From Nitrospira sp. SB0677_bin_15 (lineage in GTDB: Bacteria; Nitrospirota; Nitrospiria; Nitrospirales; UBA8639): a stretch of DNA of 53,471 nt. Position 1 is the stretch's first letter. The number at the start of each line of letters is the position of its first letter. The stretch is taken from contig VYFB01000001.1 of the NCBI GenBank assembly GCA_009842645.1, positions 1-53,471 of the forward strand, written 5' to 3'. Shown piece after piece: positions 217 through 6,119 of the stretch. The notes below the pieces were generated by a model. The model was given only the letters and a program-made list of their open reading frames with translations, made no database searches and was not told the DNA's origin. The translations under genes were made by a program, and so were the position numbers.

Positions 217-1242
217 TTACAAAGCTGATAGGGCTTTTTCCAATCGACTCCGGCCATCCAAAAACTCCAATTCCAGGATAACGGCGTAGAGAGGCGTGGG
301 AACCGACCAATTCGATTGAACCTTTATCAAATCTTTTTCCGTCGTGAGCACCACGTCCGGACGGCTCCGTTCAATACGTCGATAAATCTCCGCAACCCTG
401 GAAGGTCCGTACGCTTCGTGATCCCGAAAGACAAGTTCATCCACCACCTGCACGCCGAATGCAGTCACCATCCGGCGGAACTGTTCGGGATTCCCGATGC
501 CACTGAAGAGGAGCGCCCGTTTCCTGTGAACACCGGAAACCGGCATCGACTCCGATGCCCCCATCAACGTTTTTGGCGTGAATCTCGTGGTGATGGGATC
601 GATCGCGGAACCCATAGCCGCCTGAATGGGATGCAATACGTCAGCAATCATGGATTCATCTTCAACCCGGGTCAGAATAATATCCGAGGCTCTTCTGGCT
701 TCGCCAAGCGGTTCCCGAAGTTTTCCCACGGGAAGCAGCGCCTGTATTCCGGCAGGATTGGAACTGTCCACCAACAGCAGGTTTACGTCACGGTCGAGAC
801 CCAAATGTTGGAAACCGTCATCCAGGATGAAACAGTCAATGGGTGTTTGGCTCAATACCCAACGACCCAGTTCATATCGATCAGCGCCAACGGCTACGAC
901 GACGCCAGGGCAGTTCGTCGCCATTAGATACGGTTCGTCACCAGCTTCCCGATGTCCGGCAAGGACCGACGTTCCATCAGAGACCAGCAAAAATTCCCGT
1001 TGACTTTTGCGACGGTATCCCCGGCTGAGGACGCACGGCTTTTTCCCGTATTCCAACAGCTTGCCGGCCACCCACATGGCCATGGGGGTTTTACCCGTGC
1101 CACCGACAGTGAGATTTCCGACACTGACCACCGGACGCGGCAACCGGCGTCGTGCCAACCATCCTCGTTTATACAGCCACGTCCGAAAACACGTTGCGAA
1201 TCGATACGGGCCGGTCAGTATCGACGTCCATCCGTTCATCAT
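217..1242 (-). CDS. lpxK: Tetraacyldisaccharide 4'-kinase LpxK
   Basis: LpxK phosphorylates the 4' position of the tetraacyldisaccharide 1-phosphate to give lipid IVA, at the inner face of the cytoplasmic membrane. The 341-residue product has the family's P-loop near residues 42-53 (GNLTVGGTGKTP) and the DDGFQH motif near 140. The N-terminus is hydrophobic and basic, as expected for membrane attachment. It is the last gene of the envelope operon, starting 7 nt after the waaA stop. A second ATG lies one codon in. It ends in TAA directly before a field of palindromic repeats. Length and motifs are normal, so the call is firm. Confidence 0.95.
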   Translation of the reverse strand: MMNGWTSILTGPYRFATCFRTWLYKRGWLARRRLPRPVVSVGNLTVGGTGKTPMAMWVAGKLLEYGKKPCVLSRGYRRKSQREFLLVSDGTSVLAGHREAGDEPYLMATNCPGVVVAVGADRYELGRWVLSQTPIDCFILDDGFQHLGLDRDVNLLLVDSSNPAGIQALLPVGKLREPLGEARRASDIILTRVEDESMIADVLHPIQAAMGSAIDPITTRFTPKTLMGASESMPVSGVHRKRALLFSGIGNPEQFRRMVTAFGVQVVDELVFRDHEAYGPSRVAEIYRRIERSRPDVVLTTEKDLIKVQSNWSVPTPLYAVILELEFLDGRSRLEKALSAL

Positions 1243-1249
1243 GGATTCG

Positions 1250-2551
1250 CTAATCCGACTTACAACGACTCAAGCCGACGACTTGCTCGACCATAGCCAA
1301 ATTTCTCTCAACCACGCCTTGATTGTCATCGATGACTTTTCGCGCGTTCAGCCCCAGATGAGACACCCAATCCTGATTTTGTATCCCTCTGACGAACGTT
1401 TCGGTCAATTCATGACCATTGCGGACTCGAATGCCGCCGCCGGATTCGATCAATAATTCCGCTATTTCATGGCAGTGATCGGTATAGGGTCCGAAACACA
1501 CGGGTTTTCCCCAAACCGGCGGTTCCAGGAGATTGTGCCCTCCTACGGGAACCAAAGTTCCTCCCACAAATGCCATGAACGCCAACCCGTACACTTGAGC
1601 CAATTCTCCTTGGGTATCAAGAAGGATAACCCGCGGTCCCACGGCTCCCCGGGCACCCCCTTCAAGCAAACGGCTACGTCTCACTGGGGGAAACCCGAAA
1701 TCCTCGATTGTCCGGGCCAGTACGTCGCATCGTTCGATATGTCTTGGAGCCAACAGGAGAACAACGTTGGAGAATGAACGGAGCAACTCGCGGTAACTTT
1801 TCAAAAGGATCTCTTCCTCAGTGGGATGGGTACTGCCTGCGACGAGCAACCGTTCGTCTTCCGACAGCCTGAAGGCCGAACGTTGGATCGATGGCTGAAA
1901 AGGAAACCCTCCGTTCATCGTGAGGTCGAATTTCATGTTCCCTGTACGGTGCATCCGGTCAGGCAAAGCCCCTAACTCGACGAACCGGCGTTCATCCCTG
2001 CCGGACTGCACGAGCCCCAACGCGACGGTCGAAAGAACCTGCCGCATGAACGGCCTGACCCATTGATAGCGAGAAAAGGAACGGGATGACAATCGTCCGT
2101 TCATGATAACGGCAGGAATTCCCCGGCGAGAGAGTGAACGCAACAGGTTCGGCCAAAGTTCGGTTTCGACGACTACAAACCCGATTGGGTTCAGGGAAGT
2201 AATGAACCGGTTAACGATCCAGGGATAATCCAATGGTAAAAAACAATGCGTAGCGATGCCGGGCAATTGTTGCCGCACGGCTTCCCGTCCGGTTTCCGTA
2301 ATGGTCGATACAACGATCCTGGTGGCGGGATACCGTTGATGAAGCATCCTCACGAACGGCACGATGGCGGAAACTTCTCCCAAGGACACAGCATGAATCC
2401 AGAGCACGTTCTGCCGGGAGTCCCACCCTCGCGGCACAACCCATCCTATCCGTTGCAACAGGCCGGAACGACACCGTTTCTTGAGCAGCAACGCGCAAAG
2501 AATGAGCGGAAACGCGAGGATAAGGAGTACATTATAGAGACCGTACCACAT
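1250..2551 (-). CDS. waaA: 3-deoxy-D-manno-octulosonic acid (Kdo) transferase
   Basis: WaaA (KdtA) transfers Kdo from CMP-Kdo to lipid IVA. The N-terminal membrane anchor (MWYGLYNVLLILAFPLIL) is followed by the GT-B fold signatures: the HAVSLGE motif with the expected catalytic Glu, a VVETELWPN motif, and a C-terminal GGHNLLEPP motif. I place the start at the ATG at 2551, giving 433 residues. This ATG follows the stop of the frameshifted upstream gene by one base and has GAGG about 10 nt upstream. A start at 2575 would be inside that gene. Coupling to the upstream gene is therefore likely. Confidence 0.93.
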   Translation of the reverse strand: MWYGLYNVLLILAFPLILCALLLKKRCRSGLLQRIGWVVPRGWDSRQNVLWIHAVSLGEVSAIVPFVRMLHQRYPATRIVVSTITETGREAVRQQLPGIATHCFLPLDYPWIVNRFITSLNPIGFVVVETELWPNLLRSLSRRGIPAVIMNGRLSSRSFSRYQWVRPFMRQVLSTVALGLVQSGRDERRFVELGALPDRMHRTGNMKFDLTMNGGFPFQPSIQRSAFRLSEDERLLVAGSTHPTEEEILLKSYRELLRSFSNVVLLLAPRHIERCDVLARTIEDFGFPPVRRSRLLEGGARGAVGPRVILLDTQGELAQVYGLAFMAFVGGTLVPVGGHNLLEPPVWGKPVCFGPYTDHCHEIAELLIESGGGIRVRNGHELTETFVRGIQNQDWVSHLGLNARKVIDDNQGVVERNLAMVEQVVGLSRCKSD

Positions 2552-2552
2552 C

Positions 2553-3211
2553 TCAGCACGACCTCGAATCATCACACATCGCTTCCGCTTCGGATGACAG
2601 GGAACAGAGAGTGGTTTCCAAATCTACCCGTATCCGCTCCAAGGTCTCGGCGTCAGCATCACGTTCAACCCGAACCGGGTTTCCCCAAAGATAGATTCCG
2701 CTGGAAAACGGATACGGGACTATGAACCGGTCCCAACTGGAAAAGACTTTTTTTTTGAGCACGCAAACGCCAAGGGAACGATGGGCAGGCCCGTGAATTT
2801 GGCGAGCGCGACGACCCCCGGTTGAATGCGATGCCTGGGCCCTTTGGGGCCATCGGGCGTAATGACGAGATCAACACCTTCCCGACTCAGGCGAATCAGC
2901 TGACGCAAGGCCTTGTACCCTCCCCGCGTGGCTGACCCGCGGACCGCTCCATATCCGAATCGTTTGACGATTCGATAGATCAGTTCTCCATCACGGTGCT
3001 GGCTGATCAGGATCTCGGGGTGAGGACCGCGGTAACCTAACGGGATCATCAATTGTTGCCCGTGCCAGAATGCCACGATGACATTGCGTCCTTCCCCGTA
3101 TATTCGATCCAGCGGTTCGAATCCATACGACTTCAAGGACATCGACTTGCCGAGAAGCCGAATCGTGGCCGCGCCGAGAAACGACAGAATACTGAATTTC
3201 AATGGGTTCAT
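2553..3211 (-). CDS. DUF374 (lysophospholipid acyltransferase-like) protein, interrupted by a -1 frameshift at an A9 run
   Basis: The first 150 or so residues match the DUF374 family, relatives of the LPLAT acyltransferases: a hydrophobic N-terminus, AFWHGQQLMIPLGY, ISQHRDGE, RGSATRGG and TPDGPKGPRH. The reading frame then hits nine A (2748-2756 on the plus strand as T9) and would end 7 codons after the serine that follows the lysines, giving 163 residues. The family's C-terminus (SSWDRFIVPYPFSSGIYLWG) continues in the -1 frame to a stop at 2553, one base before the waaA ATG, for about 219 residues in all. In phase, the run reads as the slippery heptamer A AAA AAG. This may be real recoding or transcriptional slippage, an indel in a homopolymer, or a recent mutation. 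Members of this family sit beside msbA/waaA in other genomes, and a role in lipid A or lipid remodelling is only inferred. Confidence 0.8.
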
Positions 3212-3237: not shown

Positions 3238-4986
3238 CTACTGCATCGTGTGCATTGCGGGAACGTCGTGGAATTGGGTCTGGTACAATCGCGAGTACAT
3301 TCCGTTTCGACGAAGTAATTCATGATGGAGACCCTCTTCCACAATGCGCCCTTCGTCCAGGACAATAATACGGTCTGCATGCTGAACGGTCGAAAGACGG
3401 TGGGCAATGACCAGCGTCGTCCGGTTTTTCATCAATTCAGCCAAAGCCGCCTGGACTTGTCGTTCGGACTCGGTATCCAACGCGGAGGTCGCTTCATCGA
3501 GAATCAGCAGGGGAGGATTCCGCAATATCGCGCGGGCAATGGCCAACCGCTGCCTCTGTCCGCCGGACAAGGTGACGCCGTTTTCTCCTATCAGCGTATC
3601 CAACCCGTTGGGTAACTCTTCAATAATTTCCCACGCGTATCCCGCCCGGGCTGCATGGATAATTTCTTCCTCGGACGCGTCAGGCCGTCCATATGCAATG
3701 TTAGCCCGTACCGATTCATCAAACAAGACCGTCTCTTGGGAGACGATGGCAATCTGCGCACGCAAGGACGTCAGGGTCACCTCCTTGAGATCCAGGCCGT
3801 CGATCAAAATGCGGCCTTCGGACGGATCATGAAACCTCGGCACCAAGCTCATCAGGGTGGATTTGCCGCTCCCACTTTTTCCGACCAACGCAATCATTTC
3901 GCCGAACTCGACGGTCAGGTCAATGTGTTCGATTGCCGGAACATCACTCCCTTCATAATGAAAGCTCACGTTTTGAAACTCCAGGGAACGCGAGATGGCC
4001 GGCAAGGCCGCACGCCCGGAATCGCGAACAAATTCGTGCTCCATATCCAGCATTTCAAAAACCCGGTTCGCTCCTGCCATTGCCCGTTGAATGAACATAT
4101 TGGCGTTGGCCAGTTTTTTTAACGGGGCATACGCCATGAACGTGGCCGCTAAAAAGGAAAAAAACTCGCCGGGTTTCATTTGCCCGTCTATCACTGAAAA
4201 CCCGCCGTACCACACGATAAAGGCAATACCACCTATGCCTATCAGCTCCAACAGGGGCGACGTCAGCGCGCCCAGCTGCGCCGATTTCGTGACCGCTCGC
4301 AAATACGTGGCATTTCCCTTGGCAAATCGTTGTTGTTCAACGTGTTCACCCCCGTACGCTTTGACGATTCGAATGCCGGCAAAAGCCTCTTTCAACGACG
4401 AGGCCATGTCTCCCATCGACTCCTGGCCCCTGGCAGCCAACTTTCGCAACCGCTTGCCGATTTTCACGATGGCATAGGTTGAAACCGGCATCACCACAAG
4501 CAACGCCGTGGCCAGCTTCCAATTCTGATAGAACGCCACGCCGGTCAATACCACAAGGATCAGCCCTTGTTGAATCAGATCTTTAACGACGTTGGGAATG
4601 GCGTTGGCCATTTCATTGACGTCGTTGATGACTCGCGCAACCAATCGCCCGCTTGAATGTTTCTGATGAAACGGCAACGACATGCGAAGAAAGTGACTGA
4701 ACAGTTGCTGGCGGACTTCTGCCACCACGCGATTGCCCACGTAACTCATGAGATAGGCTTGACCATACGCGAAGAGTCCCTTCAACGTGGCCGCGCCGAG
4801 AACGACCAACGGCAGGACCGTCAAGAGCAGTTGATTCCTGGCGATAAAAATTTCGTCAAGGACCGGTTGTACCAACCAGGCATACAATCCGGACATACCC
4901 GCCACGCCCGCCGCGCACAGACACGCCACGATCAACCGGAACCGGTATTCATACAGGTAGGACAAAATCCTGAGATACACCGTCAT
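3238..4986 (-). CDS. msbA: Lipid A flippase ABC transporter MsbA
   Basis: MsbA flips core-lipid A across the inner membrane, powered by ATP. The product is a half-transporter of 582 residues with an N-terminal six-helix domain (about 1-310) and a C-terminal nucleotide-binding domain. That domain has Walker A (GKSGSGKST), the Q-loop region (IVSQETVLF), the signature LSGGQRQRLAIARA and Walker B LLILDEATSALD. I choose the ATG at 4986 because it overlaps the lpxB stop as ATGA. A GTG three codons upstream is also possible. It sits between lpxB and the DUF374 gene in the lipid A operon, which supports MsbA over a generic exporter. Confidence 0.93.
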   Translation of the reverse strand: MTVYLRILSYLYEYRFRLIVACLCAAGVAGMSGLYAWLVQPVLDEIFIARNQLLLTVLPLVVLGAATLKGLFAYGQAYLMSYVGNRVVAEVRQQLFSHFLRMSLPFHQKHSSGRLVARVINDVNEMANAIPNVVKDLIQQGLILVVLTGVAFYQNWKLATALLVVMPVSTYAIVKIGKRLRKLAARGQESMGDMASSLKEAFAGIRIVKAYGGEHVEQQRFAKGNATYLRAVTKSAQLGALTSPLLELIGIGGIAFIVWYGGFSVIDGQMKPGEFFSFLAATFMAYAPLKKLANANMFIQRAMAGANRVFEMLDMEHEFVRDSGRAALPAISRSLEFQNVSFHYEGSDVPAIEHIDLTVEFGEMIALVGKSGSGKSTLMSLVPRFHDPSEGRILIDGLDLKEVTLTSLRAQIAIVSQETVLFDESVRANIAYGRPDASEEEIIHAARAGYAWEIIEELPNGLDTLIGENGVTLSGGQRQRLAIARAILRNPPLLILDEATSALDTESERQVQAALAELMKNRTTLVIAHRLSTVQHADRIIVLDEGRIVEEGLHHELLRRNGMYSRLYQTQFHDVPAMHTMQ

Positions 4987-6119
4987 GCCTGACACTCCTC
5001 CAACACGACCTCCGCAGCTCTCAGGGAAGCTCCGGAAGGGCCAAGTTCGGCGCGAATGCCGACCAAGGCTTCCCGCATTTGATCGTACCGGGTTCGATCC
5101 TTGAGAAGGTGAAGCGCCTCCGCGCTCAGCCGCTCCGCCGTCACCTCAGATTGCAATAATTCCGGAACAACGCCGCGCCCAGCGACTAAATTCACCAGAC
5201 CCACGTATTCGACGGTTATGAGCATTCTGGCCAGAAGGCAGGTCAACCAGGACACGCGGTACGCCAGAATCATGGGCGTGCCGACCAGGGCTGCTTGTAA
5301 CGTGGCCGTCCCCGACGCCACCAACAGCAAATCCGCGGCTGCCATGACTTCGGCCGGCTGATTCGGCACCACGGTCACGGGAAGCACCTTGCGATCAATC
5401 ACGTCGTTGACCCATTCTTCGGCTACCGTGGGCGCCCGTCCGATGACACAATGAAGGTCGGGAAACGATTCCCTGATTCGTCCGGCCGCCTCCAGCATGG
5501 TCGGCAGGAGTGACTGGATTTCGGAATGGCGGCTTCCGGGAAGCAACCCGAGAATCAAGCCTCGAACCGGAAGACCCAATTGTTTGCGCAACCCGACCGC
5601 ATCATAGCGTTGCGCCACGTCATCGAGTAAGGGGTGTCCGACGAAACTGCACGGCACGTTGGCATCACGGTATATCGGTTCCTCAAAGGGCAAAATCACG
5701 ATCATCCGGCGCACCACGCGTTTGATCAGGTTAATCCGGTGCCGGCCCCAGGCCCAAATCTGCGGGGCGATATAATAGATGACGCGATGGCCGAACTTCG
5801 CCGCGATCCTCGCCAACCGGAGGTTCATGGACGGATTATCCACAAAGACCACGCCGTCCAGGGATTCCCGTCTAAAAAACCGCTTCAGGGTCAACACGTT
5901 GGCGAATCCCTTCCAGATCATAAGCGGTCCCGGTATCCCGACGACGTCCAGACGATGCAAGCCTTGCACCAATTCCACCCCTGCGGCTCGCATGTGCTGC
6001 CCGCCTACCCCCACGAGTCTGACTTCAGGCTGAAGTTCTTTTAGGGCCTTGGCTAAATTTGCACCGTGGAGGTCGCCCGACGCTTCACCGGTGACGATCA
6101 TGATCGACAGACCAGCCAC
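4983..6119 (-). CDS. lpxB: Lipid-A-disaccharide synthase LpxB
   Basis: LpxB (GT19) condenses UDP-2,3-diacylglucosamine with lipid X to make the beta-1',6 disaccharide of lipid A. The 378-residue protein begins with the family motif GEASGDLHGANLAKAL near residue 11 and contains GVGGQHMRAAG, YYIAPQIWAWG and LLPGSRHSEI, all diagnostic. The start is GTG at 6119, 8 nt after the stop of the oxidoreductase gene. Its stop overlaps the msbA ATG by 4 nt (ATGA), indicating coupled translation. Confidence 0.95.
   Translation of the reverse strand: MAGLSIMIVTGEASGDLHGANLAKALKELQPEVRLVGVGGQHMRAAGVELVQGLHRLDVVGIPGPLMIWKGFANVLTLKRFFRRESLDGVVFVDNPSMNLRLARIAAKFGHRVIYYIAPQIWAWGRHRINLIKRVVRRMIVILPFEEPIYRDANVPCSFVGHPLLDDVAQRYDAVGLRKQLGLPVRGLILGLLPGSRHSEIQSLLPTMLEAAGRIRESFPDLHCVIGRAPTVAEEWVNDVIDRKVLPVTVVPNQPAEVMAAADLLLVASGTATLQAALVGTPMILAYRVSWLTCLLARMLITVEYVGLVNLVAGRGVVPELLQSEVTAERLSAEALHLLKDRTRYDQMREALVGIRAELGPSGASLRAAEVVLEECQA

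Follow-up and report, generated by a model that had tools for sequence, protein, structure and literature searches.

The window analysed here, a stretch of 53,471 nt from Nitrospira sp. SB0677_bin_15 (contig VYFB01000001.1), carries near its beginning a group of lipid A genes read from the minus strand. The elements considered in this work are the following:

217-1242, minus strand: lpxK, lipid A 4'-kinase (Pfam PF02606, E=1.2e-82)
1250-2551, minus strand: waaA, Kdo transferase (Pfam PF04413, E=6.8e-60), with a probable ATG at 2551-2549
2553-2757, minus strand: continuation in the -1 frame, corresponding to the LpxJ C-terminus (SWDRF..PYPF..), with the stop TGA at 2555-2553
2720-2722, minus strand: frame-0 stop TAG that closes the unshifted product, at a position that differs widely among relatives
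2720-3211, minus strand: frame-0 part of the DUF374/lpxJ gene, an ORF of 163 aa if unshifted (Pfam PF04028, E=1.9e-27)
2748-2756, minus strand: putative slippage site, a run of nine A in the codons TC[A AAA AAA AA]G, seen as T9 on the forward strand of the window
3238-4995, minus strand: msbA, lipid A flippase, directly upstream of lpxJ (TIGR02203, 652 bits, cut-off 602)

The product of lpxJ belongs to the PF04028 (DUF374) domain family, with a score of 95 bits against a cut-off of 26.8. The NCBIfam WaaA models also match the waaA product, with scores below their curated cut-offs. The gene order lpxB-msbA-lpxJ-waaA-lpxK is retained in relatives.

At the A9 run (2756-2748) a -1 offset divides the lpxJ gene (3211-2553) in two; the codons around the run read TGC TCA AAA AAA AAG TCT TTT CCA GTT GGG ACC GGT TCA TAG. 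In frame 0, translation from the ATG at 3211 ends at 2722-2720, seven codons past the serine that follows the lysines, and gives 163 aa. A -1 shift gives instead a protein of 219 aa ending in ..SKKKVFSSWDRFIVPYPFSSGIYLWGNPV.., whose TGA (2555-2553) is followed one nucleotide on by the probable ATG of waaA. The run is the only one of nine in the 53 kb window, and the whole 2.55-Mb genome contains just 11 runs of A9 or longer. An A AAA AAG heptamer lies in phase at 2753-2747, so that the X_XXY_YYZ pattern of ribosomal slippery sites is present in the window gene. The first-pass annotation, made from the sequence of the window, had described the run, the phase of the heptamer, the seven-codon tail and the stop 1 nt before waaA, and its description was accurate wherever we checked it.

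For the structure of the protein we used an in-frame relative, L062, as a stand-in for the shifted window protein. Its AlphaFold2 model (mean pLDDT 93) matches the glycerol-3-phosphate acyltransferase GPAT (1iuq, Z 14.0), PlsC (5kym, 13.7) and PatA (13.4), and LpxM (5kn7) with Z 11.2 over 171 aligned residues at an rmsd of 3.4; LpxJ is thus predicted to have the glycerolipid acyltransferase fold. In this model the frameshift junction falls at the end of strand 145-152, and it is followed by the strands 155-158, 164-167 and 172-177 and by the helix 189-213. The 163-aa form would thus be missing the end of the core sheet as well as the C-terminal helix, and is probably inactive as an enzyme. In Helicobacter, Campylobacter and Rickettsia the DUF374 protein is LpxJ, through which lipid A receives a secondary chain (PMC6148475). 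The search of the genome for members of the LpxL/LpxM family (PF03279) found none, and for this reason LpxJ is the only candidate for a late acyltransferase that was found. The context lpxB-msbA-lpxJ-waaA-lpxK supports the prediction that the lpxJ product acts late in lipid A biosynthesis and transfers an acyl group to the 3'-linked chain.

The offset is not peculiar to this genome. Each of the 13 congeners carries A9 or A10 at this codon and encodes the C-terminus in a different frame, and a scan of the order with the pattern A9-N(8-18)-TGGGAY found the run, spacer and TGGGAY in 212 of 235 genomes, with a constant spacing among the locus matches listed. When the genomes of the order that lacked the pattern were searched at the protein level, true homologues that are in frame and run-less were recovered (G202, G117 and family f4); in the remaining ones, many of them incomplete, no gene was detectable by protein search. 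Outside the order, at least eight families show the offset together with A9 or A10, some in the class (f5, f6, f8, f9) and others in the phylum (f15, f16, f19, f26), while families f18, f21, f22 and f32 have lpxJ homologues that are in frame and run-less. Four finished chromosomes also carry it (FP929003, CP092081, OX638327 and CP070743). Two metagenome-assembled genomes labelled as Deltaproteobacteria and as unclassified bacterium (L077, L068) have the same out-of-frame run and the same gene order, for which transfer, an independent origin and mislabelling of the bins are all conceivable.

The stretch from the serine codon (or its equivalent) to the TGG of the conserved Trp-Asp measures 24 nt in the 57 run-less homologues counted, all of them in frame. 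In the 104 distinct genes with a run it measures 23 nt, exactly one nucleotide less, in 102 cases, the exceptions being L007 (22 nt) and L062 (24 nt). Among the 103 genes that are out of frame, 102 need a -1 shift and one, L007, would need +1. In L007, which comes from the same genome as L021, the A10 is followed by four T where others have five. L062 has A10 and is the only in-frame case among the 104 run-bearing genes. Both the +1 offset of L007/L021 and the in-frame A10 of L062 may be either real or assembly errors. The first-pass annotation had proposed comparing the run in related genomes, taking an out-of-frame A9 in several species as a sign of recoding and ten A in frame as a sign against it. 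The first expectation was borne out in many species; the second applies to L062 alone, since 17 relatives with A10 still have the -1 offset and L007 has +1.

The other runs of A9 or longer in this genome were looked at for additional cases. Two coding ones, both in frame, served as controls within the genus: the A10 of panC (L215) was retained in 0 of 12 aligned congeners and the A9 of a protease gene (L226) in 0 of 11, so that both are unique to the window's genome within the genus. The region of the protease gene (L226:1201-1900, minus strand, query 519-581) also contains a dispersed repeat of ~60 nt, with ~40 copies in the window's genome (G000) and from a few to 43 copies in most congeners.

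The length of the run follows a strict rule. In the 103 distinct out-of-frame homologues it is 9 A in 85 and 10 A in 18, and never 7, 8 or more than 10; a homopolymer of at least ~8-9 A/T, as is characteristic of slippage genes, lies at the frame transition in 103 of 103. Two phases of the run with respect to the codons were observed. In the early phase, in which TCA or TTA precedes the lysines and the run starts there, the third codon is AAC in 45 genes, AAG in 29 and AAA in 17. In the late phase, with TCT, CGC or CGT first and the run beginning one base later, all 12 genes have AAA as their third codon. Phase and third codon are associated (Fisher p=3e-8; p=3.5e-4 after thinning of the set, with 8/8 vs 11/37), with the proviso that the sequences are related and the p values overstate their independence. 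Elsewhere in the same genes AAG is more frequent than AAA, and TCA is among the rarest serine codons. Furthermore, the run-less homologues have lysine at the three positions of the run in only 14, 6 and 12 of 57 cases, and lysine being so scarce there, the run is not forced by the function of the protein. Given that at least nine A are kept in both phases and that a heptamer needs seven, it is the length, and not a ribosomal heptamer, that is conserved.

Both sides of the site bear the mark of selection. The pN/pS was ~0.11 upstream of the site in frame 0 (last 300 nt, 10 congeners), and after the site it was ~0.36 in the -1 frame vs 0.74 in frame 0 (10 congeners). Over the 45 codons that follow the TGG, the -1 frame was free of stops in 45 of 45 representatives, and frame 0 had a stop in 40 of 45. 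The -1 frame downstream of the run is thus under purifying selection; a conserved transition between frames and a second frame under coding selection, the two traits expected of a slippage gene, are both found here. The distance to the frame-0 stop varies greatly, so the unshifted tail does not behave as a conserved product.

In a tree computed from 89 proteins after masking of the run site, the state of the run changes 8 times, vs a mean of 30 when shuffled. The in-frame, run-less genes L127 (within its genus, with starred support), L126, the f4 clade and L157 are nested among run-bearing relatives and retain the order msbA-lpxJ-waaA. In these reversions the repair of the frame coincides with the loss of the run, as would be expected if the run serves only the shift. 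The nesting favours loss over gain in these lineages, in a tree that is unrooted and in which the two are formally indistinguishable.

Taken with the conservation of the offset, we consider it nearly certain that some recoding takes place at lpxJ, and the explanations that do without it fare badly. An indel introduced during sequencing or assembly, one of the options raised by the first-pass annotation, would be a natural suspicion at a homopolymer, a kind of sequence prone to error, but the same offset recurs in more than 200 genomes from different projects, including the four finished chromosomes, and the probability of this option is practically nil. True inactivation, in which the truncated gene would be decaying or the 163-aa form would be the sole product, agrees with the early end of frame 0 and with its unconserved stop position. 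Against it stand the purifying selection on both sides of the site, the -1 frame free of stops in every representative where frame 0 is mostly interrupted, and the return of several lineages to an in-frame, full-length gene; we therefore dismiss this option, likewise raised by the first-pass annotation, as very improbable. Equally, poly-A runs are highly mutable, and the occurrence of both 9 and 10 A together with the in-frame A10 of L062 could suggest phase variation, in which changes in the length of the DNA run would switch the gene on and off. A switching locus would often show its on-state, yet just 1 of the 104 run-bearing genes is in frame. Moreover, each of the 17 genes that combine A10 with the -1 offset is one base shorter outside the run, so that the offset is preserved, and phase variation has to be regarded as extremely improbable.

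The question is then whether the polymerase or the ribosome shifts. Frameshifting by -1 on the ribosome, of the type of Escherichia coli dnaX, has in its favour that a suitable heptamer is always in phase and that 102 of the 103 out-of-frame genes need the same direction, which the GeneTack authors regard as indicating ribosomal frameshifting (PMC3711429). This uniformity speaks against a transcriptional reading, and it is also what an insertion bias of the polymerase predicts: the E. coli RNA polymerase showed no slipping below eight A and on A runs it inserted rather than deleted (PMC6260861), a behaviour consistent with the length rule and with the uniformity of the -1 shift. For the ribosome A7 would be enough, yet at least nine A are retained in both codon phases, and the commonest third codon is AAC. 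The stimulators that the first-pass annotation had suggested looking for were absent from the 45 representatives: an upstream SD-like element occurred in 5 of 45, below the background of 32%, and downstream RNA structure, evaluated over 70 nt as nested folds only, had a mean z of +0.31 with none below -2. The genome also encodes both tRNA-Lys(CUU) and tRNA-Lys(UUU) (genes CTT and TTT); the former should stabilise AAG on the ribosome, and the presence of the two is the condition cited for the use of RNA polymerase slippage by Thermus dnaX (PMC5009743). Hence we hold ribosomal frameshifting as the principal mechanism to be unlikely, and, as an A_AAA_AAA or A_AAA_AAN heptamer is always contained in the run, the ribosome may still contribute a share.

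The rule of at least nine A, the lack of ribosomal stimulators in the representatives, the two tRNA-Lys and the behaviour of the E. coli polymerase favour instead that lpxJ is expressed by programmed transcriptional realignment, a reading to which we assign a probability of about 0.77. Polymerase slippage had been among the options of the first-pass annotation. Its comparison with dnaX holds, and the data favour recoding of the Thermus type over the E. coli type: the heptamer is not conserved, its third codon varying between AAC, AAG and AAA, and the stimulators are missing. In this mechanism the RNA polymerase would slip on the A9 run and insert an extra A into some of the transcripts; the A10 transcripts would be translated in the ordinary way into the 219-aa enzyme, and the faithful A9 transcripts would yield the 163-aa protein. 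We infer the RNA polymerase as the agent, the frequency of the slip, the full-length form as the active one and lipid A as the substrate. Efficiencies reported for other slippage sites are ~50% for the A9 of Thermus dnaX (PMC5009743), 40% in E. coli for an A9 cassette from a magnesium chelatase gene (PMC3711429) and ~20% for the A11 of Citrobacter rodentium tssM1 (PMC4256274).

Several known systems resemble this one. With the dnaX of Thermus thermophilus, lpxJ shares the A9 on the coding strand, a slippage expected to add A and the two C-termini (PMC5009743, PMC3711429); the genes are not homologous, and in Thermus the long product comes from frame 0 and the short one from slippage, whereas in lpxJ slippage would make the full-length protein. 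In tssM1 of C. rodentium the interruption also lies just past a poly-A and slippage restores full length with neither SD-like element nor structure (PMC4256274). Unlike tssM1, an isolated case of a type VI secretion system with A11, lpxJ encodes a core envelope enzyme, its run is of 9-10 A, and the arrangement is conserved across the order and into other classes of the phylum. The magnesium chelatase genes of the corresponding GeneTack cluster likewise combine a -1 offset in a metabolic gene with in-frame fusions in other species (PMC3711429); they are different genes, with runs of A7-A11 against only 9-10 in lpxJ. Under translational coupling the same paper lists a 'Tetraacyldisaccharide kinase / acyltransferase' cluster, which may correspond to lpxK and a neighbour. 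With E. coli dnaX the window gene has in common the A AAA AAG heptamer in phase, but it lacks the SD-like stimulator and the stem-loop, and its heptamer is not conserved among relatives. Finally, LpxJ of Helicobacter, Campylobacter and Rickettsia belongs to the same Pfam family (PMC6148475), and here the gene lies in an lpx cluster; no frameshift is described in those enzymes, and the Nitrospirales ones are putative LpxJ. Our search of open-access full text found no report of a frameshift in DUF374/LpxJ or in Nitrospira.

To our knowledge, few conserved non-mobile genes need RNA polymerase slippage for their main product. Apparently, lpxJ is a further case of a known type of recoding, and one that is unusually widely conserved. 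In two genes of family f2 of the order (L096 and L100), the -1 frame past the A9 or A10 run continues with no stop through the LpxJ C-terminus into WaaA, and this LpxJ-WaaA fusion ORF lies entirely behind the slip.

The finding concerns the maturation of lipid A in nitrite oxidisers of the Nitrospira type; the run and its length rule have been retained across more than 200 species. Annotation pipelines likely label lpxJ as truncated or as a pseudogene, with the consequence that the enzyme would be overlooked. The repeated reversions of lpxJ are natural control experiments, and the gene lends itself to testing whether the cell just tolerates slippage or uses it to set the level of an enzyme. 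A possible, still doubtful extension is that slippage could act, in a lineage at the level of a phylum, as a set-point for the acylation of lipid A and, via the coupling to waaA, for Kdo transfer; with the fusion ORF of family f2, the synthesis of the Kdo transferase itself could depend on the slip.
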